A stretch of 59,150 nucleotides of DNA, taken from contig CALZZE010000016.1 of assembly GCA_945830575.1 (NCBI GenBank), forward strand, positions 1 through 59,150, written 5' to 3'. The translations under genes and the position numbers were made by a program. The number at the start of each line of letters is the position of its first letter. Positions within the stretch are counted from its first letter, which is position 1. This DNA comes from an uncultured Subdoligranulum sp. GTDB taxonomy: Bacteria > Bacillota > Clostridia > Oscillospirales > Ruminococcaceae. The notes below the pieces were generated by a model, which searched no databases, was not told where the DNA came from, and saw nothing but the letters and a program-made list of their open reading frames with translations. Of the stretch, positions 3,212 through 15,845 are shown one piece after another.

Positions 3212-4390
3212 CTAAAACACTTTCACAATTCGTATTCCACGGGCAGAATTGCTTTTTACACCCGTCTGCACCGCAACGCCGTACTGGCTAAACAATTCGC
3301 TTCGGTGTTTTATGACCGCTGCCCGTACTGCATCCCCAGCCTTTTCTGTTGGTCTGTTGTATGCGCCACGGAAAACGGTGTCATAGTCGTAAAAATCGCC
3401 GCCAGTATTTTTACTTGGTGTATGTTCCAGTATCCAGCGTATAACGCTATCATTCAAAAGGGCATCGGGGTTTGTGATTTCAAGTTCCCATTCGCAAAAA
3501 TTCTCATTAAACGCGAGTTTCATTTCGCCGCCCTTCGCGTCTCGTGGTGTGAATTCCAGCGTTGCTTTTCCGTCAAACCGCTTTCCGTCTGAAATGAGGT
3601 TCAACACGCTATCGGCCGAACCTGAAATGCCCATCGTGCCGCTCAATCTTTCAAACACATCAGACGAAAAACCGGCCCCCTTTTTATCATGGTGGACAAA
3701 TACAACGGCAATCTTTTCGTCCATTGCCATCCGTTGAACGGGTTCGAGCAGCTGCACATCTGCGTCATAAGCATTTGCACCAGTAGATTTTACGGTTCCC
3801 CTTGCACGGCTGAACGTATCGATAATGACAAGGCGGATATCCGGCTTTTGGTGGTGCAATTCGCGAATCCGTTCTGTTAGCCCATCCGAAATTTTTGTGC
3901 CGCTGTCGTTTGTGATATATACGTTTCGCGGAACGGTTAGCCGCATCCGGTCGGCTCGGGTGGATATCCGGCTTTTGGAGCCTTCAAGGTCTAAATAGGC
4001 AACGCTGCATTGCATTGTTTTGTGCCCTAAAAAAACCGAACCCGTGGCAACTGCCGCCGCCATTTGAAGGGCAAGGAAACTCTTTCGGAGTTTGGGCGCA
4101 CCGCTTAAAAAGGTCATTCCGGTTGGTATCATATTTTCGACAATAAATTCCGGTGGCGTTCGTTCTTCGTCCGTCAAATCTGGCAGGCTGTAAAAACCAA
4201 AGCTGTCAAAGGCTGATTTTGAGGATTTTCCTGTGCGCCAGTCAAGGTGCTGTTCGTCACAACGTTTCAACAGGCGATACATTTCATCGACTGACAAAGA
4301 GTTTTTAGCCATGTACGTTGTTAATTCGTCGACTGGCACCCGCTGAAGAAGAAAGTCTAATTTGTTTTCATCGTTCGCCAGAGAAACCAC
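3212..4390 (-). CDS. RepA-like hexameric helicase/AAA_25 ATPase
   Basis: This encodes 392 residues. A RecA-like ATPase core starts near residue 85, with a P-loop region SGAPKLRKSF (about 95-104) and a Walker B strand RLVIIDTFSRA (about 190). A conserved VFVHHDKKG segment (about 235) is typical of RepA/RSF1010-type replicative helicases. The P-loop has Arg where the usual GKS glycine stands (KLRKS). The start looks like a GTG and overlaps the excisionase-like gene by 23 bp. In small integrative elements such proteins serve autonomous replication after excision, so this is the likely replication gene. Confidence 0.75.
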   Translation of the reverse strand: MVSLANDENKLDFLLQRVPVDELTTYMAKNSLSVDEMYRLLKRCDEQHLDWRTGKSSKSAFDSFGFYSLPDLTDEERTPPEFIVENMIPTGMTFLSGAPKLRKSFLALQMAAAVATGSVFLGHKTMQCSVAYLDLEGSKSRISTRADRMRLTVPRNVYITNDSGTKISDGLTERIRELHHQKPDIRLVIIDTFSRARGTVKSTGANAYDADVQLLEPVQRMAMDEKIAVVFVHHDKKGAGFSSDVFERLSGTMGISGSADSVLNLISDGKRFDGKATLEFTPRDAKGGEMKLAFNENFCEWELEITNPDALLNDSVIRWILEHTPSKNTGGDFYDYDTVFRGAYNRPTEKAGDAVRAAVIKHRSELFSQYGVAVQTGVKSNSARGIRIVKVF

Positions 4391-4577
4391 CGTCCCCCAA
4401 ACTGTTCAGCTGGTCAATCAGCAAATCCACGTTGATTAGGCATTTTGTACCCGCGTACATGCAGGGAAGTTTCCCTTGCTTTTGCATCTGCCGTAGACAG
4501 TGTTCTGACAGAATCCCAAGCCGCGCAACCTCGCGAATCGTTCGCATCCGGGGCAGGTTTGTTTTTTCCACCGTCAT
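4368..4577 (-). CDS. Excisionase-like helix-turn-helix protein
   Basis: This encodes 69 residues. Residues 12-60 read as a MerR/Xis-type winged HTH: TIREVARLGILSEHCLRQM followed by KLPCMYAGTKCLINVDLLIDQL, the pattern of the excisionase/HTH_17 domain (helix, turn, helix, wing, then an asparagine- or lysine-linked helix). AGGAGG precedes the ATG and the start overlaps the upstream stop. Proteins of this type bind attachment-site arms and bias the integrase toward excision. A transcription regulator is possible as well. Confidence 0.65.
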   Translation of the reverse strand: MTVEKTNLPRMRTIREVARLGILSEHCLRQMQKQGKLPCMYAGTKCLINVDLLIDQLNSLGDGGFSGER

Positions 4578-4774
4578 TTTTCCTCCTGCGTCTGCCGCTG
4601 TTCCACCATTCGGTCAATCGTTCTCAGAATGTGTTCTTTTTGGTCGGTGGGCAACTCGCGGCGAAGTTTCCGGGACAAATTACCATCGTAAATTCCAAGA
4701 GCCTCCGCAAGTTCCCACAGCCGAAATCCGTTTTCTTTTACAGCGTTTCTAACGTCCTGGTTGGGTTTCATCAT
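4574..4774 (-). CDS. Small HTH protein, cro-like position
   Basis: This encodes 66 residues with an HTH-like segment (RLWELAEALGIYDGNLSRKLR) and a C-terminal amphipathic helix ending in a charged tail. It is the first gene of the leftward operon and is divergent from the Xre repressor across a 100-bp region with operator-like sequences. That is the usual place for a Cro-like or early regulator. GGAG lies seven bases before the ATG. Similar small HTH proteins are common in Firmicutes integrative elements; the exact role is inferred from position. Confidence 0.6.
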   Translation of the reverse strand: MMKPNQDVRNAVKENGFRLWELAEALGIYDGNLSRKLRRELPTDQKEHILRTIDRMVEQRQTQEEK

Positions 4775-4913
4775 TTTTCAACTCCGTTCAAATAATTTCA
4801 CTTGCATTTTGTTGTTGCTTGTGTTATTATTATATTAACATAAATGTTCTGTTTATGGAACAACGGCGTTATCTTAATTTATGTTACAAATACTAAGGAT
4901 TGGAGTTGAAACA
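4775..4913. promoter_or_regulatory. Divergent control region with operator-like repeats
   Basis: The nonamer AACATAAAT occurs at 4837-4845 and in inverted form at 4877-4885. The first copy forms the near-palindrome AACAT-AA-ATGTT. The region is very AT-rich compared with the chromosome and holds both start regions of the repressor/integrase and leftward operons. I infer binding sites for the Xre repressor that set the switch between integration and excision. Confidence 0.5.
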
Positions 4914-5483
4914 TTGGAAAATGTAACAATGAACCCGTGGAAAGATGTTCCCCCCAAAGACCGGGTCAGGATTTGCCGCGAAAGAATGAACCTAACACAA
5001 ATCGAACTTATGGACAAAATTCGGGAACTTCCCGAGAATGGGGACAAAGAGCGGAACGAAAAACAAATCGGATATATAGAAAACGGCAAAAGAAAGATAT
5101 CTGCTGAATATGCACGGCTTCTTGGAAAGGTTTTTGGTGTCCAGCCTTCTTTTTTGTTAGGTGAAACCGATTTTGAAACAGAAGCCGCCCGTTTCCATAG
5201 TGTTATTGGCACCATGAAACATGAAGGCAATCTGTTGTATACAGGGCTTTGTGCTTTTGCTATGTTGACCGATTATGAAGTATCACCGCCGAATTTACCG
5301 AATACTGGTTCTGTTGAAAGCTATCTCAAAGAAATAAAAGCCGGGTACAGAATCACAAAAGACAATCAGACTGTTACCCTATCCATAGAAGAAATGAACC
5401 GTTTTGAAAATGAAGTTTGCGACTTTGTGGAACTAAAGCTAATACACCTATTCAAACAAAAGGGAGTTGACAGCAATGGCTAA
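4914..5483 (+). CDS. Xre-family repressor of the element
   Basis: This encodes about 189 residues. Residues 18-85 contain an Xre-type HTH (RVRICRERMNLTQIELMDKI ... YIENGKRKISAEYARLLGKVFGV split by an insertion), followed by a C-terminal helical dimerisation-like part. An ATG at 4881 lacks a ribosome site, while TTG at 4914 has GGAG eight bases upstream, so I prefer 4914. The gene overlaps the integrase start by 8 bp and faces the HTH operon, the classic layout of a cI/Stl-type master repressor. A peptidase or SOS-cleavage motif is not evident, so induction may need a helper protein. Confidence 0.75.
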   Translation: MENVTMNPWKDVPPKDRVRICRERMNLTQIELMDKIRELPENGDKERNEKQIGYIENGKRKISAEYARLLGKVFGVQPSFLLGETDFETEAARFHSVIGTMKHEGNLLYTGLCAFAMLTDYEVSPPNLPNTGSVESYLKEIKAGYRITKDNQTVTLSIEEMNRFENEVCDFVELKLIHLFKQKGVDSNG

Positions 5484-6666
5484 CATTCAAGAGCGCCGGG
5501 ACAAATCCGGGAAACTGATTTCTTTTTCCATCCGTGTCCATCGGGGCCGGGGTGCAGACGGCAAACAGCTAAAACCATACACAGCAACTTTTGATGTTCA
5601 GCCCACTTGGACGGAAAAAAGCGCACGGCGAAAAGCTGAAACTTTCGCCGCAAACTTTGAAAAAGAAATAAAAGAAGGGCGAATCTCCGACAACCGCCAG
5701 AAATTCGCCGACTACGCTAATTATGTAATTGGTTTGAAGGAAAAACGTGGGGTCAAGCACAGCACCATTACCCGATACAAGGAACTGACAACGCGCATAT
5801 ACCCGGCAATCGGTCACATGAAACTGACTGCCATTCGCGCCGATGTCCTCAACGATTTTTACACCGCCCTGTCTGCGGACGGTCTGAACAAGAGAACAGG
5901 CGGCAAGCTGTCAAACAAAACCATTTTGGAGCATCACCGCCTGATTTCCACCGTTTTGGAACAGGCCGTCAAAGAAGGTCTCGTCCCCTTCAACGTGGCA
6001 GAACGGACAGAACTGCCAAAGGCAACCCAGAAACAAGTCAACTACTTCCAGCCGGAACAGGTGACAGCCATCAGGGACGCCGCCGAAACCGAACCGCTCA
6101 AGTGGAAAACCCTTGTGCATCTGTTTCTTGTGACAGGCGCAAGGCGTGGTGAACTGCTGGGCTTAAAGTGGAAAAACGTGGACTTTGACGGGAGCCGCAT
6201 TTACATCTGCAACAATGTTCTGTACACGCCTGACCGTGGAATCTATGAGGACACGCCAAAAACAGAAAAATCCATCCGCTATATCTCTTTGCCGCAAGAA
6301 ACAACGGCCCTTCTTCGCGAACATCTTCGCGCACAGCTTCAACAGCGTTTCGCTATGGGAGACCGCTGGCACAACCGTGATTTTGTTTTCACGCAGGAAA
6401 ACGGTGAACCGATGCACCCGGACAGCGTGACAGATTGGCTTAATAAATTTTCCAAACGCCACGACCTGCCGCACATCAACCCCCACGCATTCCGGCATAC
6501 TATGGCATCCATTCTCTATTTCAACGGCGTTGACAGCATCAGCATTTCAAAGCGCTTGGGTCATGCCCAGCCATCCACAACGACAAATATTTACGCCCAT
6601 ATCATTGAAGAAGCAGACAAGAAAAACGCCGATGTTATAGCAGACGTATTCTTGAAGAAGGCCTGA
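5476..6666 (+). CDS. int: Tyrosine-family site-specific integrase
   Basis: This encodes 396 residues. The N-terminal 60 residues look like an arm-binding AP2-type domain, followed by a SAM-like core-binding domain (about 75-180) and a catalytic domain. The catalytic residues are visible: Arg in TGARRGE, His-x-x-Arg in HAFRH, His in LGHAQ and Tyr in TNIYAH. The ATG at 5476 has GGGAG upstream and overlaps the repressor stop. The gene points toward the intact tRNA-fMet about 110 bp downstream, matching integration into that gene. It should catalyse recombination between the 80-bp attachment repeats. Confidence 0.92.
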   Translation: MANIQERRDKSGKLISFSIRVHRGRGADGKQLKPYTATFDVQPTWTEKSARRKAETFAANFEKEIKEGRISDNRQKFADYANYVIGLKEKRGVKHSTITRYKELTTRIYPAIGHMKLTAIRADVLNDFYTALSADGLNKRTGGKLSNKTILEHHRLISTVLEQAVKEGLVPFNVAERTELPKATQKQVNYFQPEQVTAIRDAAETEPLKWKTLVHLFLVTGARRGELLGLKWKNVDFDGSRIYICNNVLYTPDRGIYEDTPKTEKSIRYISLPQETTALLREHLRAQLQQRFAMGDRWHNRDFVFTQENGEPMHPDSVTDWLNKFSKRHDLPHINPHAFRHTMASILYFNGVDSISISKRLGHAQPSTTTNIYAHIIEEADKKNADVIADVFLKKA

Positions 6667-6678
6667 TTTTTATAGCGT

Positions 6679-6697
6679 GTTGAATTAAAGTTGAATT
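6679..6697. promoter_or_regulatory. Putative right arm-type integrase sites
   Basis: GTTGAATT occurs at 6679-6686 and 6690-6697, 11 bp apart, between the integrase stop and attR. The same octamer and spacing appear near the left end. The matched pairs on both arms support binding by the integrase N-terminal domain. Confidence 0.5.
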
Positions 6698-6713
6698 TTC
6701 AGACAAAATTTAA

Positions 6714-6857
<144 letters not shown>

Positions 6858-6888
6858 TAAAACGCGCTCTCTTCTTGAGTGCCTAATC

Positions 6889-6980: not shown

Positions 6981-9545
6981 ATGAAACGGCTGGTGGTGGG
7001 CGTGCTGGCCCACGTGGACAGCGGCAAGACCACGCTGAGCGAGGCGATGCTGTACCGGGCGGGGGCGCTGCGGCGGCTGGGCCGGGTGGATCACAAGGAC
7101 ACCTTTTTGGACACCGACGCGCTGGAAAAAGCGCGTGGCATCACGATTTTTGCCAAGCAGGCGGTGCTGGAGCTGCCCGGCGCGGTGTTGACGCTGCTGG
7201 ACACACCGGGGCACGTGGATTTTTCCGCCGAGGCGGAGCGCACCCTGCAGGTGCTGGACTACGCGGTTCTGGTGATCTCCGGCACCGACGGGGTGCAGAG
7301 CCACACCGAAACGCTGTGGCGGCTTTTGCAGAAATATCGCGTACCTACCTTCATTTTTGTGAACAAGTGCGACCTGCCGGGGGCGGACCGGGCGGTGCGG
7401 CTGCGGGAATTGCAGGGGCGTTTCGGGGATGGCTGCGTGGATTTTTCCGCGCAAAGTCCCGACCCGGAGGCGCTGGCGCTGTGCAGCGAGCCGCTGATGG
7501 AGGAAACGCTGGCCGACGGTGCGCCTGAACCCGGCACCATCGTCACCGCCATTGCGCGGCGGCAGGTGTTCCCGGTGTATTTCGGCGCGGCGCTGCGTCT
7601 GGACGGGGTGGACGCGCTGCTGGAGGGATTGCAGCGCTGGACCCGGCAGCCCCGGGCAGGGGAAGAATTTGGCGCACGTGTGTTCAAAATCAGTCAGGAT
7701 GAGCAGGGTGCGCGGCTGACCCACCTGAAAATCACCGGCGGCGTGCTGCGCGTGAAAGACCCCCTGTGTGACGGTGAAAAGGCCGACCAGCTGCGGCTGT
7801 ACAGCGGCGCCAAATACCGGCTTGTGAGCGAGGCCGAACCCGGCACGGTGGTGGCGGTGACCGGCCCCACCCACACCCGCCCGGGACAGGGCCTTGGGGC
7901 GGCGGCGGACGGCGGTGCGCCGCTGCTGGAGCCGGTTTTGAACTACAAGGTGCTGCTGCCCGAGGGCGCCGACCCCCACGCTGCGCTGCGCGCCCTGCGC
8001 ACGCTGGAGGAGGAGGACCCCCAGCTGCATGTGGTGTGGCAGGCGGCTTTGGGGGAAATTCATGTGCAGCTGATGGGCGAGGTGCAGCTGGAAATTCTGC
8101 AAAGCCTGCTCAAAAGCCGGTTCGGGCTGAGCGCCGGCTTCGGCGAGGGCGGTATATTATATAAGGAAAGCATCACCGAACCGGTGGCGGGGGTGGGGCA
8201 TTACGAGCCGCTGCGCCACTATGCCGAGGTGCATCTGCGGCTGGAGCCTGCGCCCCGGGGCAGCGGCGTGCAGCTGGCGGCGGACTGCCCGCCGGACACG
8301 CTGGCGGAGAACTGGCAGCGGCTGATTCTGACCCACCTTGCGGAGCGCACCCATCCCGGCGTGCTGCTGGGCGCGCCGCTGACCGACGTGACCATCACGC
8401 TGACGGCGGGGCGGGCGCACCTGAAGCACACCGAGGGCGGGGATTTCCGGCAGGCCACCTACCGGGCGGTGCGGCAGGGGCTGCGCACGGCGGCGGCGCG
8501 GGGACAGGCCGTGCTGTTGGAGCCGTGGTACGATTTCCGGCTGACGCTGCCCGCCGACAACGTGGGCCGGGCCATGGCGGATGTGCAAAAGCTGAGCGGC
8601 AGCTTTGACACGCCGCTGACTGAGGGGGAAAACGCCGTACTGACGGGAAAAATTCCTGTTGCCACGGCGCGTGGCTACGCCCGGGAGGTGGCCGCCTACA
8701 CCCACGGGCTGGGCCGCTGGACGGTGCAGCCCGCCGGGTACGCCCCCTGCCACAACGCGGAAGAAGTGCTGGCCGCGGCGGGCTACGACGCGGACGCCGA
8801 CACCGAGAACCCCGCGGACTCGGTGTTTTGCAGCCATGGGGCTGGATATTTGGTGCATTGGGACGAGGTGCCCGCCAAGGCGCATCTGGCGGTGCGGGAC
8901 CCGTCCGCCCCGCAGTCCGAGGAGGAGGAACAGCCGGACGCCCGGCGCCGCCGTGCCGCCGCCTACCGGGGCACGCTGGCGGAGGACAAGGAGCTGCTGG
9001 AAATCTTTGAGCGCACCTACGGAAAAATAAAACGCAGAGATGACAAATCCCTGCGTCAGGCACTGCACACACGGCCGGAGCGCCCGGTGCAGCAGACCCC
9101 CTCCAAGGCGTTGACTGGGCCGGAGTACCTGCTGGTGGACGGCTACAACGTGATTTTTGCGTGGGAGGAGCTGAACCGCATCGCGCAGGAAAATCTGGAC
9201 GGGGCGCGCCGGCGGCTGATGGACATTTTGTGCAACTACGCCGGATACCGCCGCTGCGTGCCCATTCTGGTGTTTGACGCCTACCGGGTGAAGGGCGGCA
9301 GCCGGGAGGTGGAGCAGTACCACAATCTGCACATTGTGTACACCCGGGAGGCGGAGACCGCCGACATGTTCATCGAGCGGGCCACCCACCAGCTGGCCAG
9401 GGACCACCGCACCCGGGTGGTGAGCAGCGACGGCGCGGAGCAGCTCATCATTCTGGGCAACGGCGCGCTGCGGGTGTCGGCGCGGGCGTTTGCCGCCGAG
9501 GTGGCCGCCGTGGAGGCGGAAATTCGGGAATTTCTGGAGGAATAA
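6981..9545 (+). CDS. TetM-like ribosomal GTPase fused to a Rae1/YacP-type NYN nuclease
   Basis: This encodes 854 residues. Residues 1-660 form a translation-factor GTPase of the EF-G/TetM type: AHVDSGKTT (10-18), RGITI (52-56), DTPGH (74-78) and NKCD (128-131), followed by the EF-G-like domains. After an acidic linker (SEEEEQPDARRRR region) and a charged helix, a NYN/PIN-fold domain begins at YLLVDGYNVIF (716-726). Candidate acidic active-site residues are Asp720, Asp795 and Asp817. That domain resembles YacP/Rae1, which cleaves mRNA in the ribosomal A site. TetM proteins are about 640 residues and lack it. I chose the ATG at 6981 because of the purine-rich site before it. The fusion suggests GTP-driven entry to the A site followed by mRNA cleavage. 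True tetracycline resistance is not assured. Confidence 0.85.
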   Translation: MKRLVVGVLAHVDSGKTTLSEAMLYRAGALRRLGRVDHKDTFLDTDALEKARGITIFAKQAVLELPGAVLTLLDTPGHVDFSAEAERTLQVLDYAVLVISGTDGVQSHTETLWRLLQKYRVPTFIFVNKCDLPGADRAVRLRELQGRFGDGCVDFSAQSPDPEALALCSEPLMEETLADGAPEPGTIVTAIARRQVFPVYFGAALRLDGVDALLEGLQRWTRQPRAGEEFGARVFKISQDEQGARLTHLKITGGVLRVKDPLCDGEKADQLRLYSGAKYRLVSEAEPGTVVAVTGPTHTRPGQGLGAAADGGAPLLEPVLNYKVLLPEGADPHAALRALRTLEEEDPQLHVVWQAALGEIHVQLMGEVQLEILQSLLKSRFGLSAGFGEGGILYKESITEPVAGVGHYEPLRHYAEVHLRLEPAPRGSGVQLAADCPPDTLAENWQRLILTHLAERTHPGVLLGAPLTDVTITLTAGRAHLKHTEGGDFRQATYRAVRQGLRTAAARGQAVLLEPWYDFRLTLPADNVGRAMADVQKLSGSFDTPLTEGENAVLTGKIPVATARGYAREVAAYTHGLGRWTVQPAGYAPCHNAEEVLAAAGYDADADTENPADSVFCSHGAGYLVHWDEVPAKAHLAVRDPSAPQSEEEEQPDARRRRAAAYRGTLAEDKELLEIFERTYGKIKRRDDKSLRQALHTRPERPVQQTPSKALTGPEYLLVDGYNVIFAWEELNRIAQENLDGARRRLMDILCNYAGYRRCVPILVFDAYRVKGGSREVEQYHNLHIVYTREAETADMFIERATHQLARDHRTRVVSSDGAEQLIILGNGALRVSARAFAAEVAAVEAEIREFLEE

Positions 9546-9547
9546 GC

Positions 9548-10108
9548 ATGGAATGGTTGGATGTGGTGGATGCGCAGGGCCGCCCCACAGGCGAGCGGGT
9601 GAGCCGGGAGCAGGCTCACCGGGAAGGGGTGCGGCACCGCACCGCCCACGTGTGGATTTTGCGCAAAAAAGACGGAGAAACGCAGATTTTACTGCAAAAG
9701 CGCAGCGATGACAAGGACAGCCATCCCGGCTGCTACGACATCTCCAGCGCGGGGCACATCCCCGCCGGGCAGGAGTTCCTGCCCTCGGCGCTGCGGGAAT
9801 TGAAGGAGGAGCTGGGCGTGGAGGCCGCGCCGGAGCAGCTTATCTACTGCGGGCAGCGGCGGTTTCATTTTGAATCGGAATTCCACGGCAGACCGTTCAT
9901 TGACAACCAGGTGAGCAACGTCTACGCCCTGTGGCTTGACCGGGAGGCGCAGGACTTCACCTTGCAGGCCGAGGAAGTGAGCGAGGTGCGCTGGTTCGCC
10001 TTTGAGGACGCGGTGCGCGCCGTAGCGGAAAACCGCATCCCCCACTGCATTTATCCGGGGGAGCTGGAGCTGGTGCGGGCGGCTGTTCTTCTTTCGAGTC
10101 GGCTGTAG
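9548..10108 (+). CDS. Nudix hydrolase, isopentenyl-diphosphate isomerase-like
   Basis: This encodes 186 residues. The Nudix box covers residues 69-91 (GHIPAGQ...RELKEELGV). The usual first Glu reads Gln75, while Arg83-Glu84, Glu87 and Glu88 are kept. The N-terminus (VVDAQGRPTGERVSR) and the HPGCYDISSAGH stretch resemble type-1 IPP isomerase-like Nudix proteins. It starts two bases after the GTPase-nuclease stop, so the two are one operon. Its substrate could be a nucleotide diphosphate or a damaged metabolite. The TAG stop codon is part of the foot of a REP hairpin, so the C-terminus may have been set by that insertion. Confidence 0.8.
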   Translation: MEWLDVVDAQGRPTGERVSREQAHREGVRHRTAHVWILRKKDGETQILLQKRSDDKDSHPGCYDISSAGHIPAGQEFLPSALRELKEELGVEAAPEQLIYCGQRRFHFESEFHGRPFIDNQVSNVYALWLDREAQDFTLQAEEVSEVRWFAFEDAVRAVAENRIPHCIYPGELELVRAAVLLSSRL

Positions 10109-10223: not shown

Positions 10224-10793
10224 TCACCCCCGTTTGAACTGTTCCAGCGCCGCCGACAGGTCGGCGGGGGTGTCCACATCGAACAATTCCCATGCGTCCA
10301 CCTCCAGCAGGCGCACCTTGTCCGGGTGGGCCGCTGCCACCGCGCTGCCGCCGCCCTGCTGCACCGCGGCCAGCTCGGCAAAGGCCCAGCGGGGAAACAC
10401 CACCGGCGCACCGGGCTGTCCCTCCGCGGCGGGACGCCAGATGGTCTCCGGCTGGCGGGCAAAGGCCGCTGCCAGCGCCGCCACCGTCTGCCGGGTGAGC
10501 AGCGGCTGGTCGCAGGGGCAAAACAGGCAGCCGTCCATCTCCGCCATCTCCGCAAGGCCCAGACGCATGGCGTCACTGCGGCGGGGCAGCGCGTGCAGAT
10601 GCACCTGTACGCCCCGGGCGCGGGCATACTCCGCCGCCGCCGCGCTGCGGGTGAGCAGCACCCGTTTGTCAAACAGGCCATCGGTGGCCTCTATGGCACG
10701 GGAAATCAGCGGCGAACCGTCAAAATTCGCCATCAGCTTGTCGGCGCCGAACCGCCGCCCGAGACCGCTTGCCATCAAAACGCATCCCAGCAT
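10224..10793 (-). CDS. mocA: MocA-like molybdenum cofactor cytidylyltransferase
   Basis: This encodes 189 residues of the MobA/MocA NTP-transferase fold: a nucleotide-binding start (LMASGLGRRFGADKLM, residues 6-21), the metal/substrate motif CPCDQPLL (about 92-99) and a C-terminal VDTPADLS. MocA adds CMP to molybdopterin for hydroxylases of the xanthine dehydrogenase family. It is divergent from xdhB across an 88-bp region with a palindrome, which fits co-regulation with the hydroxylase genes. MobA is less likely given the context. Confidence 0.8.
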   Translation of the reverse strand: MLGCVLMASGLGRRFGADKLMANFDGSPLISRAIEATDGLFDKRVLLTRSAAAAEYARARGVQVHLHALPRRSDAMRLGLAEMAEMDGCLFCPCDQPLLTRQTVAALAAAFARQPETIWRPAAEGQPGAPVVFPRWAFAELAAVQQGGGSAVAAAHPDKVRLLEVDAWELFDVDTPADLSAALEQFKRG

Positions 10794-10817
10794 TTTTTCT
10801 CACTCCTTTTTTCCTAA

Positions 10818-10850
10818 ATTGTAGCACAAACCTGCAAACTATGCTACAAT
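10818..10850. promoter_or_regulatory. Divergent promoter/operator between mocA and xdhB
   Basis: ATTGTAGCA (10818-10826) and TGCTACAAT (10842-10850) are a perfect inverted repeat with a 15-bp spacer. Each arm also supplies a -10-like TACAAT for one direction. I infer a shared operator and overlapping divergent promoters for the molybdenum hydroxylase module. Confidence 0.5.
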
Positions 10851-10881
10851 AAAAGAAGAACTCAAAAAAGGGGAGCTGCTC

Positions 10882-11670
10882 ATGCTTCAATTTCAAAATT
10901 ACGTCCGGGCGCAAAGTCTGGAACAGGCGTACACCCTCAACCAGAACCGGCGTGCCCGGGTGCTGGGCGGTATGCTGTGGCTGCGCACCGAGGGCGGCAC
11001 GGCGGGCACCGCCATCGACCTGTCCGCCCTTGGGCTGGATACCATTGAGCGCACCGGCGAGGGCTGGGCCATCGGCGCGATGGTGTCCCTGCGCACGCTG
11101 GAGCGCCACCCCGAACTGAACGCCATGACCGGCGGGGCCTTTGCCAAAGCGCTGGCTCCCATTGTGGGGGTGCAGTTCCGCAATCTTGCCACCGTGGGCG
11201 GCAGCGTGTGGGGACGGTTTGGATTTTCTGACGTATTGACGCTGCTTTTAGCTCTGGACGCCGAGGTGGAGCTGTACCATGCGGGCCGGATACCGCTGGC
11301 GCAGTTTGCGGAGCTTGCCCCCGACCGGGACATTCTGGTGCGGGTGCTGGTGCCGGACGCCCCCGTAAAGCTGGACTATCAGGCGGCGCGCATCGCCCGC
11401 ACCGACCTGCCGCTGCTCACCTGTGCCGCCGCGCTGCCGCAGGACGCGCCGCCCCGGCTCATCATCGGGGCGCGGCCCATGCGAGCCATGCCGGTGGCCG
11501 ACGCACAGGGCATTTTGTCTGCCGGGCTGACCCCCGAGGCCATCCGCGCCTTTGCGGACTACGCCGCCGGGGCGGTGCCCACCGGCACCAACAGCCGGGG
11601 CAGCGCCGAATACCGCACCCATCTTGTGAAGGTGCTGACCACTCGCGCACTGGGAGGGCTGATCCAATGA
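10882..11670 (+). CDS. xdhB: Molybdenum hydroxylase FAD-binding subunit
   Basis: This encodes 262 residues of the CO dehydrogenase/xanthine dehydrogenase FAD-binding subunit family. The flavin-binding region is seen at LATVGGSVWGRFGFSDVLT (about residues 98-116), and the C-terminal lobe (ARIARTDLPLLTCAAAL) is typical. It would pass electrons between the iron-sulfur subunit and NAD or another acceptor. GGGGAG precedes the ATG. Its stop overlaps the start of the iron-sulfur subunit by 4 bp, so this is a coupled operon. Confidence 0.88.
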   Translation: MLQFQNYVRAQSLEQAYTLNQNRRARVLGGMLWLRTEGGTAGTAIDLSALGLDTIERTGEGWAIGAMVSLRTLERHPELNAMTGGAFAKALAPIVGVQFRNLATVGGSVWGRFGFSDVLTLLLALDAEVELYHAGRIPLAQFAELAPDRDILVRVLVPDAPVKLDYQAARIARTDLPLLTCAAALPQDAPPRLIIGARPMRAMPVADAQGILSAGLTPEAIRAFADYAAGAVPTGTNSRGSAEYRTHLVKVLTTRALGGLIQ

Positions 11671-12131
11671 CCATTACCATTCAACTCAACGGCCGCCCGG
11701 TGACGGCGGAGGTTTCCCCCGACACCCTGCTGCTGGATTTTGTGCGCGCCCACGGCTGCGCCAGCGTGAAATGCGGCTGCGAGACGGCGGGCTGCGGGCT
11801 TTGTACGGTATTTTTGGACGATGTACCGGTGCTTTCCTGCTCGGTGCTGGCGGCGCGGGCGGACGGCCATTCCGTCACCACGCTGGAGGGCTTACAGGAC
11901 GAGGCCGCCGAATTTGTGGGGTTCATCGCTGACCAGGGCGCGGACCAGTGCGGCTTCTGCAATCCGGGCTTTGTGATGAACACCATCGCCCTGCTGCGGG
12001 ACAACCCCGACCCCACCGATGAGGAAATCCGAAGCTATCTTGCGGGCAATCTGTGCCGCTGCTCCGGGTACGAGGGGCAGCTGCGGGGCATCCGCAGCTT
12101 TTTGAACAGCCGGAAGGAGGGCGCACAATGA
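11667..12131 (+). CDS. xdhC: Molybdenum hydroxylase [2Fe-2S] subunit
   Basis: This encodes 154 residues. The N-terminal plant-ferredoxin-like domain has the cysteine cluster CGCETAGCGLC (about residues 34-44) with a fourth Cys near 60. The C-terminal helical domain has QCGFCNPG (about 95-102) and NLCRCSGYEG, which bind the second [2Fe-2S]. The length is normal for the family. Start and stop both overlap neighbouring subunit genes by 4 bp. Confidence 0.92.
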   Translation: MTITIQLNGRPVTAEVSPDTLLLDFVRAHGCASVKCGCETAGCGLCTVFLDDVPVLSCSVLAARADGHSVTTLEGLQDEAAEFVGFIADQGADQCGFCNPGFVMNTIALLRDNPDPTDEEIRSYLAGNLCRCSGYEGQLRGIRSFLNSRKEGAQ

Positions 12132-14416
12132 GCGGCAAAAGCTATCGCGTGGTGGGCCATTCCCTGCGCAAAAAGGACGCCATGTCGCTGCTTTTGGGAA
12201 AACCCGTCTATCTGGACGACGTGGCCCCCAAGGGCGCGCTGGTGGTGAAGCTGCTGCGCAGCCCCCATCCCCACGCCCTCATCGAGACCATCGACACCAC
12301 AAACGCGCTGAAGGTTCCCGGCGTGGCGGCGGTGTATACCTATAAAGATGTACCCAAGACCCGGTTTGCCATCGCCGGACAGACCTACCCGGAGCCGTCC
12401 CCCTACGACCGGCTGATTTTAGACCGGCACCTGCGCTTTGCGGGCGACCCGGTTGCCATCATCGCCGCCGAGACCGACGCGGCCGCCGCGCGGGCGATGA
12501 AACTCATCAAAGTAACGTACAAAATTCTGCCCGCCGTGCTGGATCCCCACACCGCCAAGGACAACCCGGTGCTGGTGCACCCGGAGGAGGACTGGTTCCC
12601 GCCCTGCAACGTGGGCGGCGACAACAGGCGCAATCTGGTGGCCAGCGAGGTGGGCGGCGACGGCGACGTGGAGGCGGTGCTGGCGGACTGTGACATCGTG
12701 CTGGACCGCACCTACCACACCCCCGCCTGCAATCAGGCCATGATGGAGACCTTCCGCACCTACACCGCGCTGGACGGCTACGGCCGGCTGCGGGTGCTGT
12801 CCAGCACCCAGATCGTGTTCCATGCGCGGCGCATCCTGTCCCGGGCACTGGGCATCCCCAAAAGCCGCATCCGGGTGGAAAAACCGCGTATTGGCGGCGG
12901 TTTTGGCGCCAAGCAGACCGCCGTCTGCGAGGTGTACCCCGCCTTTGTCACCCTCATGACCGGCCGCCCCGCCAAGCTCATTTACACCCGGGAGGAGAGC
13001 CAGATCGCAGGCTCGCCCCGGCATGAGATGGAGGTGCATCTGCGGTTGGGCGCCAACCGGGACGGCCACATCCGGGCGCTGGACGTGTTCACCCTGTCCA
13101 ACACCGGCGCCTACGGCGAGCACGGCCCCACCACGGTGGGCCTGTCAGGCCACAAGTCCATTCCGCTGTACACCGGCGGGCTGGAGGCGTTCCGGTTCGG
13201 CTTTGATGTGGTGTACACCAACTTACAGCCCGCCGGGGCTTACCGGGGCTACGGCGCGACACAGGGCATTTTTGCGGTGGAGAGCGCCGTCAACGAGCTG
13301 GCCGAGACCCTTGGCATGGACCCCACCGCCATCCGGGAACAGAACATGGTGCGGGAGGGGATGCGGATGCCCGCCTACTACGGCGAGCCCAACAACGCCT
13401 GCGCACTGGACCGCTGCATGGCCCGCTGCAAGGAACTTTTTGACTGGGAGCACCGCTACCCCGTGCGGGACATGGGGGACGGCAGGGTGCGCGCCGCCGG
13501 CGTGGCGATGGCGATGCAGGGTTCCTGCATTTCCAACGTGGACGTTGGCTCCGCCACCATCAAGCTGAACGAGGACGGCGGGTACAACCTGCTCATCGGC
13601 GCGGCAGACATGGGCACCGGCTGCGACACCATTCTGGCCCAGATGGCCGCTGAATGTATGGACTGCCCGGTGGAGGATGTGGCCGTGTTCGGCGCGGACA
13701 CCGACGCCTCCCCCTACGATTCCGGCTCCTACGCCTCCTCCACCACCTACGTCACCGGCAAGGCGGTGGAGCTGGCCTGTGCCCAGCTGAAACAAAAGCT
13801 GTGCGCACTGGCCGCCCAAAAGCTGGGCGTGGCGGAATCCGGCGTGGAATTTACCCCCAGCGGCGTGGTGTGTCCGGCGGATGGCCGGGTGCTGACGCTG
13901 TCCGATTTGGCCTACGCCGCCCAGTGCGGCAGCCAGACCGCGCTGGAGGCCACCGTGAGCCATTCCTCCCCGGTATCGCCGCCGCCCTTCATGGTGGGCA
14001 TGGCGGAGGTGGAGGTGGACACCCTCACCGGCGAGGTGCGGGTGCTGGACTACAAGGCGGTGGTGGACTGCGGCCAGCCCATCAACCCGGCGCTGGCCCG
14101 CACCCAGGCCGAGGGCGGCATCGTGCAGGGCATCGGCATGGCGCTGATGGAAAACGTCACCTACGACCGCCATGGCAAGCCGGTGGAGCGCAGCTTTTTG
14201 CAGTACCGCCTGCCCACCCGGCTGGATATGGGCCATTTGCAGGTGGAATTTGAGCAGAGCAACGAGCCCACCGGGCCGTTCGGGGCGAAATCCATTGGCG
14301 AAATCGTCATCAACACGCCGTCCCCGGCCATCGCCCACGCCATCTACCGGGCCACCGGGGTGTGGCACCGCAGCCTGCCCATCACGCCGGAAAAAATCGC
14401 AATGGGAAAACAATAA
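12128..14416 (+). CDS. xdhA: Molybdenum hydroxylase catalytic subunit (xanthine dehydrogenase type)
   Basis: This encodes 762 residues, the usual size of the molybdopterin subunit. Signatures include IGGGFGAKQ (about 257), AYRGYGATQ (about 371) and GPFGAKSIGEI near the C-terminus, around the cofactor and catalytic Glu. The ATG at 12128 overlaps the previous stop. The downstream yqeB and yqeC genes are hallmarks of selenium-dependent molybdenum hydroxylases, so the metal may carry a labile selenium ligand. Substrate is likely a purine or other N-heterocycle but cannot be fixed from sequence. Confidence 0.9.
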   Translation: MSGKSYRVVGHSLRKKDAMSLLLGKPVYLDDVAPKGALVVKLLRSPHPHALIETIDTTNALKVPGVAAVYTYKDVPKTRFAIAGQTYPEPSPYDRLILDRHLRFAGDPVAIIAAETDAAAARAMKLIKVTYKILPAVLDPHTAKDNPVLVHPEEDWFPPCNVGGDNRRNLVASEVGGDGDVEAVLADCDIVLDRTYHTPACNQAMMETFRTYTALDGYGRLRVLSSTQIVFHARRILSRALGIPKSRIRVEKPRIGGGFGAKQTAVCEVYPAFVTLMTGRPAKLIYTREESQIAGSPRHEMEVHLRLGANRDGHIRALDVFTLSNTGAYGEHGPTTVGLSGHKSIPLYTGGLEAFRFGFDVVYTNLQPAGAYRGYGATQGIFAVESAVNELAETLGMDPTAIREQNMVREGMRMPAYYGEPNNACALDRCMARCKELFDWEHRYPVRDMGDGRVRAAGVAMAMQGSCISNVDVGSATIKLNEDGGYNLLIGAADMGTGCDTILAQMAAECMDCPVEDVAVFGADTDASPYDSGSYASSTTYVTGKAVELACAQLKQKLCALAAQKLGVAESGVEFTPSGVVCPADGRVLTLSDLAYAAQCGSQTALEATVSHSSPVSPPPFMVGMAEVEVDTLTGEVRVLDYKAVVDCGQPINPALARTQAEGGIVQGIGMALMENVTYDRHGKPVERSFLQYRLPTRLDMGHLQVEFEQSNEPTGPFGAKSIGEIVINTPSPAIAHAIYRATGVWHRSLPITPEKIAMGKQ

Positions 14417-14433
14417 AATCTGGGGTGTTGCCT

Positions 14434-15246
14434 ATGCTGAAACATCTGATCATCGTGCGGGGCGGCGGGGATTTGGCCACCGGCACCATCAGCCGCCTGC
14501 ACAACTGCGGGTTTCCTGTGCTGGTGCTGGAATGTGCCCGTCCCACCGCCATCCGGCGCACCGTCGCCTTCAGCGAGGCTGTGTTCACCGGCTGCCAGAC
14601 CGTGGAGGGCCTGACCTGCTGGAAGGCGGAAACTTTACAACAGGCCGTTGCTTTTTTGCGCAACGGCAAGCTGCCGCTGGTGGTGGACGAGAGCGGGGAG
14701 AGCATCGCCGCGCTGCGTCCCATGGCGGTGGTGGACGCCATTTTGGCCAAGAAAAATCTGGGCACCCACCGGGGGATGGCCCCCATCACGGTGGGCCTTG
14801 GCCCCGGGTTCACCGCCGGGTCGGATGTGGACGCGGTGGTGGAGACCATGCGCGGGCATGACCTTGGCCGGGTGCTGTATCAGGGGCAGGCGGCCCCCAA
14901 CACCGGGGTGCCTGGCGTCATTGCGGGCCACGGGGCGGACCGGGTCATCCACAGCCCCGCCACGGGTCAGTTGCAGGCGCTGCGCCACATCGGGGACTGC
15001 GTGCAGGAGGGGGAGACCATCGCCTTTGTGGGGGACGCCCCGGTGAACGCCGCCCTGACCGGACTGCTGCGCGGCCTGATACGGGACGGCGCGCCCGTGA
15101 CGCAGGGCATGAAAATTGCCGACATTGACCCCCGCATTGGGGAAAAGAAAAACTGCACCACCATCTCGGACAAGGCCCGCTGCATTGCGGGCGGCGTGAC
15201 CGAGGCGGTGTTGCACCTGCACGCCGCCAAGGGGCTGTCATGGTGA
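14434..15246 (+). CDS. yqeB: Selenium-dependent molybdenum hydroxylase system protein YqeB (EF2563 family)
   Basis: This encodes 270 residues, beginning with a glycine-rich nucleotide-binding-like motif (IIVRGGGDLATGTISRL), then VLECARPTAIRRTVAFSEAV and PITVGLGPGF, which are typical of the EF2563/YqeB family. The family occurs almost only next to molybdenum hydroxylases that need selenium and is thought to help make or insert the labile selenium ligand. The start at 14434 was chosen from homologous N-termini. The stop overlaps yqeC by 7 bp. Confidence 0.85.
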   Translation: MLKHLIIVRGGGDLATGTISRLHNCGFPVLVLECARPTAIRRTVAFSEAVFTGCQTVEGLTCWKAETLQQAVAFLRNGKLPLVVDESGESIAALRPMAVVDAILAKKNLGTHRGMAPITVGLGPGFTAGSDVDAVVETMRGHDLGRVLYQGQAAPNTGVPGVIAGHGADRVIHSPATGQLQALRHIGDCVQEGETIAFVGDAPVNAALTGLLRGLIRDGAPVTQGMKIADIDPRIGEKKNCTTISDKARCIAGGVTEAVLHLHAAKGLSW

Positions 15247-15845
15247 CAGCGGTGGTGGGTGCGGGCGGAAAAACCACGCTGATACGGGAGCTTTCTGCCC
15301 GCTACCGGGCGCAGGGAAAACGGGTGCTGGTGACCACCTCCACCCACATGTTCCGGGAGCCTTACACGCTGGTGGACGCACAGGCGGCACAGATCGTGGC
15401 CGCACTGCAAACGGAAGGCTTTGCCATGGCGGGCAGCGCGGCGGCCGGGGGCAAAATCGGCCCACTGCCCCCCGACCGGTACGCCGCCGCCTGCGCCGCC
15501 GCCGACGAGGTGCTGGTGGAGGCGGACGGGGCCAGAGGGCACCTTGTCAAGCTGCCCCGCGCCGGGGAACCTGTGATTTTTGACAACGTGACCGACATTG
15601 TGCTGGTCATCAATCTGAAAGCGGAGGGCCTGCCGCTGTGCGAGGCCGCCCACCACCCGGAACAGGTGGCCGCCGCGCTGGGCGTGGCGCAGGACGCGCC
15701 GCTGACCCCGGCGCTGCTGGGGCGGCTGGCGGCGCTGTACCGGGTGCATCTGCGCAGCCACTGGCCGGACAAACGGCTGCGGCTGCATCTGAATTACCGG
15801 CCGGGCCAACAGGCGTTGGCTGCGGCCCTGATGGGAGGACACTGA
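15240..15845 (+). CDS. yqeC: Putative selenium cofactor biosynthesis protein YqeC
   Basis: This encodes 201 residues with a P-loop-like start (VVGAGGKTTLIREL, residues 5-18), TTSTHMF and VLVEADGARG, matching the YqeC family. It is found with YqeB in selenium-dependent molybdenum hydroxylase loci and probably uses ATP in building the selenium-containing cofactor. It overlaps yqeB and is followed one base later by a membrane-protein gene. Confidence 0.85.
   Translation: MVTAVVGAGGKTTLIRELSARYRAQGKRVLVTTSTHMFREPYTLVDAQAAQIVAALQTEGFAMAGSAAAGGKIGPLPPDRYAAACAAADEVLVEADGARGHLVKLPRAGEPVIFDNVTDIVLVINLKAEGLPLCEAAHHPEQVAAALGVAQDAPLTPALLGRLAALYRVHLRSHWPDKRLRLHLNYRPGQQALAAALMGGH

Follow-up and report, generated by a model that had tools for sequence, protein, structure and literature searches.

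In a 59,150-nucleotide stretch of genomic DNA (here called the window; positions 1 to 59,150 of contig CALZZE010000016.1, assembly GCA_945830575.1) from an uncultured Subdoligranulum sp. of the class Clostridia, we found a gene at positions 6981..9545 (+ strand) that encodes a protein of 854 amino acids (aa) composed of a translational GTPase of the EF-G/Tet type, a C-terminal extension, a linker and a nuclease domain of the NYN_YacP family, to which the ribonuclease (RNase) Rae1 belongs. A fusion of this kind had been proposed in an earlier note made from the letters of the window, and Pfam confirmed it, with five EF-G-type domains followed by NYN_YacP in a single intact open reading frame (ORF) starting with ATG. 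Judged from sequence comparisons, we consider it fairly probable (roughly 60%) that in these Clostridia the protein serves as Rae1, in the rebuilt form of a ribosomal nuclease that is delivered by its GTPase part and acts on messenger RNA (mRNA).

Distribution of the fused gene and of stand-alone YacP

We screened 293 genomes of the class Clostridia for both parts of the protein. The GTPase family was present in 123 genomes and an NYN_YacP match in 192, in 191 of them above the cut-off. The fused gene itself occurred in 103 of the 293 genomes, a frequency that the earlier note had proposed to survey, and its named carriers included Gemmiger, Ruminococcus, Blautia, Hungatella and Mediterraneibacter. 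Only one of these 103 genomes (G284) also encoded a stand-alone YacP. Among the 190 genomes without the fusion, 89 encoded a stand-alone YacP, counting a weak match below the cut-off in G261, and 101 encoded none. Fusion and stand-alone gene thus nearly exclude each other (p 5e-20, uncorrected for common descent). The window's own genome, which is 99.9% complete, likewise encodes no YacP besides the fused one.

The fused genomes include six whose frames are short or split (G062, G235, G185, G190, G044 and G172); their NYN match shares the GTPase frame, lies in an adjacent one or is at a contig edge. Nine others (G035, G037, G071, G121, G151, G175, G198, G202 and G270) are classed as fused from a long GTPase frame (789-937 aa) alone. 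Second YacP matches of about 21 bits, below the cut-off, in G120, G174 and G208 were excluded from the counts, and G203, with a frame of 293 aa, was classed as unfused.

The position of the stand-alone gene pointed in the same direction. In five of six genomes with a stand-alone YacP (G106, G128, G164, G118 and G284; G048 being the exception) yacP sits between rlmB and sigH. A tblastn search of the 24 best rlmB loci of fused-only genomes, with flanks of about 1.5 kb or less at contig ends, found yacP at none of them, the best stray match having an E value of 0.04. Eight of these 24 genomes kept rlmB and sigH adjacent, and yacP was missing between them in all eight. The names SigH and CysS were checked with NCBIfam on single cluster members, and the SigH of L101 was best matched by SigH models at scores below their cut-off. 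Because no yacP was present at the rlmB loci of fused-only genomes, the nuclease is absent from its customary operon in genomes that carry the fusion, and by these sequence data the fused protein appears to stand in for stand-alone Rae1 in these Clostridia.

Tet proteins with a YacP-like NYN domain have been reported before from "ten species of clostridiales" (Atkinson 2015, PMC4342817). As far as that description allows comparison, those clostridial proteins have the same architecture as the window protein and very probably belong to the same family. The architecture was therefore already in print in 2015, and what our sequence survey would add is the distribution evidence for the fusion as the Rae1 replacement of many Clostridia. 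Searches of an open-access library, which lacks key papers on Rae1 such as Condon 2018 (on Rae1 distribution, by its title), gave no experimental study of the fusion.

Nuclease active site and loss of the Rae1 tail

The NYN_YacP domain occupies positions 9123..9542 (+), with a Pfam match over residues 717-851 at 156 bits against a cut-off of 24.6. The earlier note had pointed to aspartates at about 720, 795 and 817; these were correctly placed, and Asp766 could be added as a fourth. All four (Asp720, Asp766, Asp795 and Asp817) are conserved without exception in both sets, the 50 fused rows (49 of them distinct) and the 50 stand-alone NYN rows. Their aligned counterparts in Rae1 are D7, D53, D81 and D104, some of which we take to be catalytic. 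With the Bacillus subtilis protein Rae1/YacP (PDB 5mq8/5mq9) the window protein thus shares the NYN_YacP family, the four invariant aspartates and, likely, cleavage of mRNA at the ribosome. Rae1 differs in being a stand-alone protein of about 170 aa with a FEKWRR tail, encoded by a gene usually found between rlmB and sigH, whereas in the window protein the NYN domain is fused C-terminally to a GTPase, has no such tail and is encoded next to a tRNA-Met gene and a Nudix hydrolase gene.

The missing tail was a consistent feature of the fused form. B. subtilis Rae1 ends with FEKWRRGD at residue 168 (from the alignment with the solved structure), Arg166 being the second arginine of the motif. A FEKWRR-like C-terminal tail was found in 47 of the 50 stand-alone rows with a loose pattern and in 42 with a strict one, but in none of the 50 fused rows; in a second set of 70 fused proteins, the window included, one matched the loose and none the strict pattern. 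Genome G284, which carries both forms, has the tail on its stand-alone copy and lacks it on the fused copy. The characterised Rae1 is described as cleaving mRNA on ribosomes. PMC6613710 names R166P among the changes in rae1 by which an efp deletion is suppressed, and its authors class these as loss of function. This would fit a role of the tail in ribosome targeting, a job that the GTPase module may have taken over in the fused protein.

Architecture of the fused protein

The GTPase domain (6990..7640, +; residues 4-220) matched Pfam GTP_EFTU at 154 bits and carries the motifs AHVDSGKTT at residue 10, DTPGHVDF at 74 and NKCD at 128, which bears out the intact GTPase motifs described earlier. 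It is followed on the same strand by EF-G domains II and III (7668..8141; residues 230-387, with EF-G_D2 at 230-300 and EFG_III at 317-387), domain IV (8154..8492; residues 392-504, EFG_IV) and domain V (8511..8756; residues 511-592, EFG_C). The tip loop of domain IV, GRAHLKHTEGGDFR (8409..8450, +; residues 477-490), is a signature of the family. A conserved C-terminal extension around NPxxSVFCxHGAGFxVxWDxV (8757..8888, +; residues 593-636) is partly common to unfused relatives. In a fold search the listed matches spanned residues 1-607 only, and a search of PDB with domains IV-V matched EF-G and TetO/TetM.

Between extension and nuclease lies a variable linker (8889..9122, +; residues 637-714), for which an AlphaFold2 model gave low confidence (predicted local distance difference test, pLDDT, about 36-55). 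The stretch corresponding to residues 631-720 measured 75-180 aa across 70 fused proteins. An acidic linker had been described for the window protein: an EEEE patch is indeed present, while in the 70 proteins acidic residues (D+E, 16.4%) only equal basic ones (K+R, 16.3%). A short motif within the linker, ELLEIFERTYG in the window protein (8991..9023, +; residues 671-681), was searched by regular expression as E-x2-3-IFxxTYG, which matched 58 of 70 fused proteins in one set, 21 of 49 in another and none of 45 unfused rows.

A locus survey, in which the best 80 of 593 loci were kept by likeness, returned the same single-frame fusion at 76 loci, two frameshifted genes and two cut by contig ends before the NYN part. 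Because 76 of the 80 kept loci share the fusion in one frame, it is not a product of chance or assembly error. L036, L151 and L180 are fused genes split by frameshifts, each in a single genome, and may be sequencing errors or decaying copies. The closest named locus was that of Gemmiger formicilis, with 80% identity over the part that runs from domain IV through the extension, in a listing that may omit the nearest records to the window. For the window gene itself an alternative GTG start at 6879, which would lengthen the frame, was judged less likely; it lies 26 bases beyond the tRNA-Met gene (6777-6852, -).

Phylogeny and unfused relatives

A quick tree was calculated from 104 GTPase rows; L223, being truncated, and L036, being split, were excluded together with two far outgroups. 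The outgroup branches of the tree were long. One fused gene (L030/L059) and one unfused gene (L068/L230) were each represented twice, so that the 50 fused rows correspond to 49 distinct genes. All 50 fused rows fell into one clade with a support of 99 in the Shimodaira-Hasegawa-like approximate likelihood ratio test (SH-aLRT), and this clade included one unfused protein, encoded on a plasmid of Ligilactobacillus salivarius. The other 44 unfused rows lay outside it; 20 came from within the class, where 19 genomes supplied them, and 24 from elsewhere, namely from two sampled orders plus a single additional genome. The whole family formed its own clade of 95 rows (SH-aLRT 99), apart from TetM, TetW, the OtrA-like protein and EF-G. 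Of the two orders sampled outside the class, one had the family in 37 of its 149 genomes and the other in 8 of 120; no frame exceeded 746 aa, which is insufficient for a fused protein.

The L. salivarius gene (L309, 3001-4920) encodes a protein 48% identical to the window protein and lies near an rpsN (S14) gene; it is probably a transferred copy whose NYN part was lost. The annotation of the fused Monoglobus protein reads translation factor GTPase family protein. Several same-family unfused GTPases (L288, L300, L301, L303, L305 and L306) are encoded in genomes without any YacP match, and genome G106 encodes two unfused copies (L296 and L297) besides a stand-alone YacP. A separate clade of Tet-like GTPases (L071-L074) showed 28-33% identity and a tip loop of the HHVWHTHPLDF type.

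These relatives bear on the question of how tightly the two modules work together. If the fusion were only loosely coupled, an EF-G-like GTPase helping elongation would carry along an ordinary Rae1 NYN domain. That unfused GTPases are found both with and without YacP would agree with this, as would the length and variability of the linker and the plasmid-borne protein inside the fused clade, which indicates that the NYN part can be lost. The fusion has, however, been retained across a wide clade of 50 sampled rows, the tail is absent from all 50 fused rows though G284 retains it on its stand-alone copy, and the linker motif recurs in both fused sets. We regard a loosely coupled fusion as rather unlikely.

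Comparison with tetracycline resistance proteins and EF-G

The window protein shares with TetM, TetW and TetO an EF-G-like GTPase of five domains and a C-terminal extension, and differs from them in its separate clade, in the lack of a Pro509 equivalent in the tip loop and in the additional NYN domain. The tip loop is of the type GRAHxKHTxGGDFR, with single variations, in the fused and unfused members listed, compared with YYSPVSTPADFR in TetM/TetW, HSSPSSTAADFR in the OtrA-like protein and the unlike GSYHEVDSSEMAF of EF-G. Pro509 of TetM is described in PMC8161019 as located in the tetracycline site on C1054. The corresponding residue of the window protein is Lys482; it is lysine in 59 of 59 rows of one alignment, and the listed family members have K, E or V there. 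The SPV/SPS of TetM, TetW and the OtrA-like protein was found in no listed family row (the window protein, four fused proteins and that of Monoglobus, 45 unfused proteins and that of L. salivarius).

Identity to TetM, TetW and TetO was about 28-30%. In a second listing, rows of the tet(M), tet(O), tet(W) and otr(A)-like kinds gave 27-29%, and a tet(36) row reached 31% over a third of the query. The NCBIfam model tet_protect scored 373 bits, below its cut-off of 775. Identity to EF-G chains was about 21-30% in the listed fold matches, and the EF-G model TIGR00484 scored 225.6 bits, below the cut-off of 659.4; the genome of the window has two other EF-G-like genes. The description of the protein as TetM-like is therefore supported for its EF-G/Tet-type domain order and not supported in the functional sense. 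Because Lys482 stands at the position of TetM Pro509, tetracycline resistance by the window protein is doubtful.

A role in antibiotic ribosome protection was nevertheless considered, in which tetracycline, or a different drug of the A site, would be dislodged by the GTPase, with an RNase step contributed by the NYN domain. Superfamily and domain order are common to this protein and TetM/TetO, the unfused plasmid-borne relative is annotated as a TetM/TetW/TetO/TetS-family tetracycline resistance protein, and PMC4342817 proposed a link to resistance through the RNase activity of the Tet-NYN fusion. Further, an intrinsic TetM of 647 aa from Bacillus toyonensis, which may or may not belong to the family, confers resistance in B. 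subtilis according to PMC5209696. The published primer letters of that gene read MER where most of the family has ETI, a very short stretch, which suggests a protein of TetM type rather than of the window family; a search for the gene gave three matches with three mismatches each in 397 genomes, none coding for a relative. Apart from the differing tip loop, the low identity, the separate clade and the scores below the NCBIfam cut-offs, the spread of the gene over many families of the class and the lack of a conserved neighbour speak against resistance, which we consider unlikely as the function.

Genomic surroundings

A Nudix hydrolase ORF (9548..10108, +) begins after a gap of two bases downstream of the fused gene, as the earlier note had stated in naming it the partner gene. 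The gap was correct, and the partnership did not hold: among 130 fused loci (128 distinct), with flanks of about 1.5 to 5 kb or shorter at contig ends, tblastn matched the Nudix protein only at the window itself, so that it lies beside none of the other 129 fetched loci (127 distinct). A weak blastp match of 26% was found beside one unfused gene (L069). Because no neighbour family recurred in more than 7 of the 130 fused loci within 1.5 kb, the fused gene stands alone, without a conserved neighbourhood.

This also bears on a possible role in the maturation of rRNA or tRNA, in which the GTPase would guide the NYN domain to ribosomes or precursors for trimming. Such a role has been proposed for the NYN family (as cited in PMC4342817), and the usual neighbour of yacP, rlmB, encodes an rRNA methylase. 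The characterised Rae1, however, is described as cutting mRNA on ribosomes, and no neighbour family of the fused gene is shared by more than 7 of 130 loci; a maturation factor seems very unlikely to us.

Upstream of the fused gene, the region 3212-6852 encodes an AAA_25 ATPase (3212-4390, -), a helix-turn-helix protein (4881-5483) and a tyrosine integrase (5467-6666, +). These genes probably belong to an element integrated at the tRNA-Met gene, and the fused gene would then lie just outside it. Downstream, positions 10224-15845 encode a MobA-like transferase (-), FAD, 2Fe-2S and molybdopterin-binding subunits and a YqeC protein, which form a molybdenum hydroxylase set. This set presumably resembles the selenium-dependent molybdenum hydroxylases.

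Proposed mechanism and implications

The proposal in the earlier note, of one protein that enters stalled or drug-bound ribosomes and cuts the mRNA, was partly supported: a protein that combines an EF-G/Tet-type GTPase with an intact NYN domain of Rae1 type plausibly acts on mRNA at the ribosome. We infer that the fused protein binds ribosomes and cleaves in the A site, with a sequential order of action under the control of GTP, and that the GTPase replaces the targeting role of the lost tail. The GTPase, as a distinct subfamily of Tet/EF-G translational GTPases, would bind the ribosomal factor site, and domain IV with its GRAHxKHTxGGDFR tip would enter the A site. GTP hydrolysis and withdrawal of the GTPase module would follow. 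In the A site thus freed, or beside it, the NYN domain on its flexible tether (the linker, about 80 residues here) would then cut the mRNA, on the same or possibly a neighbouring ribosome. A sequential action is suggested because domain IV and nuclease are both expected in the A site and should not fit there together. The likely outcome would be that the mRNA of a paused ribosome is inactivated and a truncated complex is left for rescue. As a tentative extension, the protein could be a GTP-clocked mRNase whose GTPase clears the paused A site and hands it to the tethered nuclease, having replaced free Rae1 and taken over the targeting by its tail; in this complete form we hold the scheme to be possible rather than probable.

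Several observations weigh against the fused protein being a rebuilt Rae1. The proposal is drawn from sequence comparisons. The fused clade represents one evolutionary event, and near-exclusivity and tail loss accordingly amount to few independent observations. A quick NYN tree drew three changes where one is possible, so that a single origin is compatible with it, not demonstrated. The R166P exchange may merely unfold Rae1, the linker motif was missed in 28 of 49 proteins of one fused set, and the AlphaFold2 model, with a predicted template modelling score (pTM) of 0.65, leaves the domain arrangement uncertain. For the unfused GTPase a function independent of any YacP partner is probable, because 7 of the 20 Clostridia genomes with an unfused GTPase encode no YacP (one of them, G203, with a 293-aa fragment). 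In a Rosetta-stone test, YacP accompanied the unfused GTPase in 13 of 20 genomes compared with 76 of 170 without it (p 0.10, not significant). In two other orders both occurred together in 43 of 43 genomes, a figure made uninformative by a base rate of 147 of 149 in one of them (the order of G489).

If the fused protein is indeed the Rae1 of these bacteria, a large part of the Clostridia would control mRNA decay on paused ribosomes by a machine of GTPase and nuclease. The way in which Rae1 finds and enters the A site would become testable, as fusion and tail loss point to a swap of targeting elements. The unfused relative is labelled a tetracycline resistance protein although it lacks the loop of the drug site, and counts of resistance genes could therefore be inflated by members of this family.
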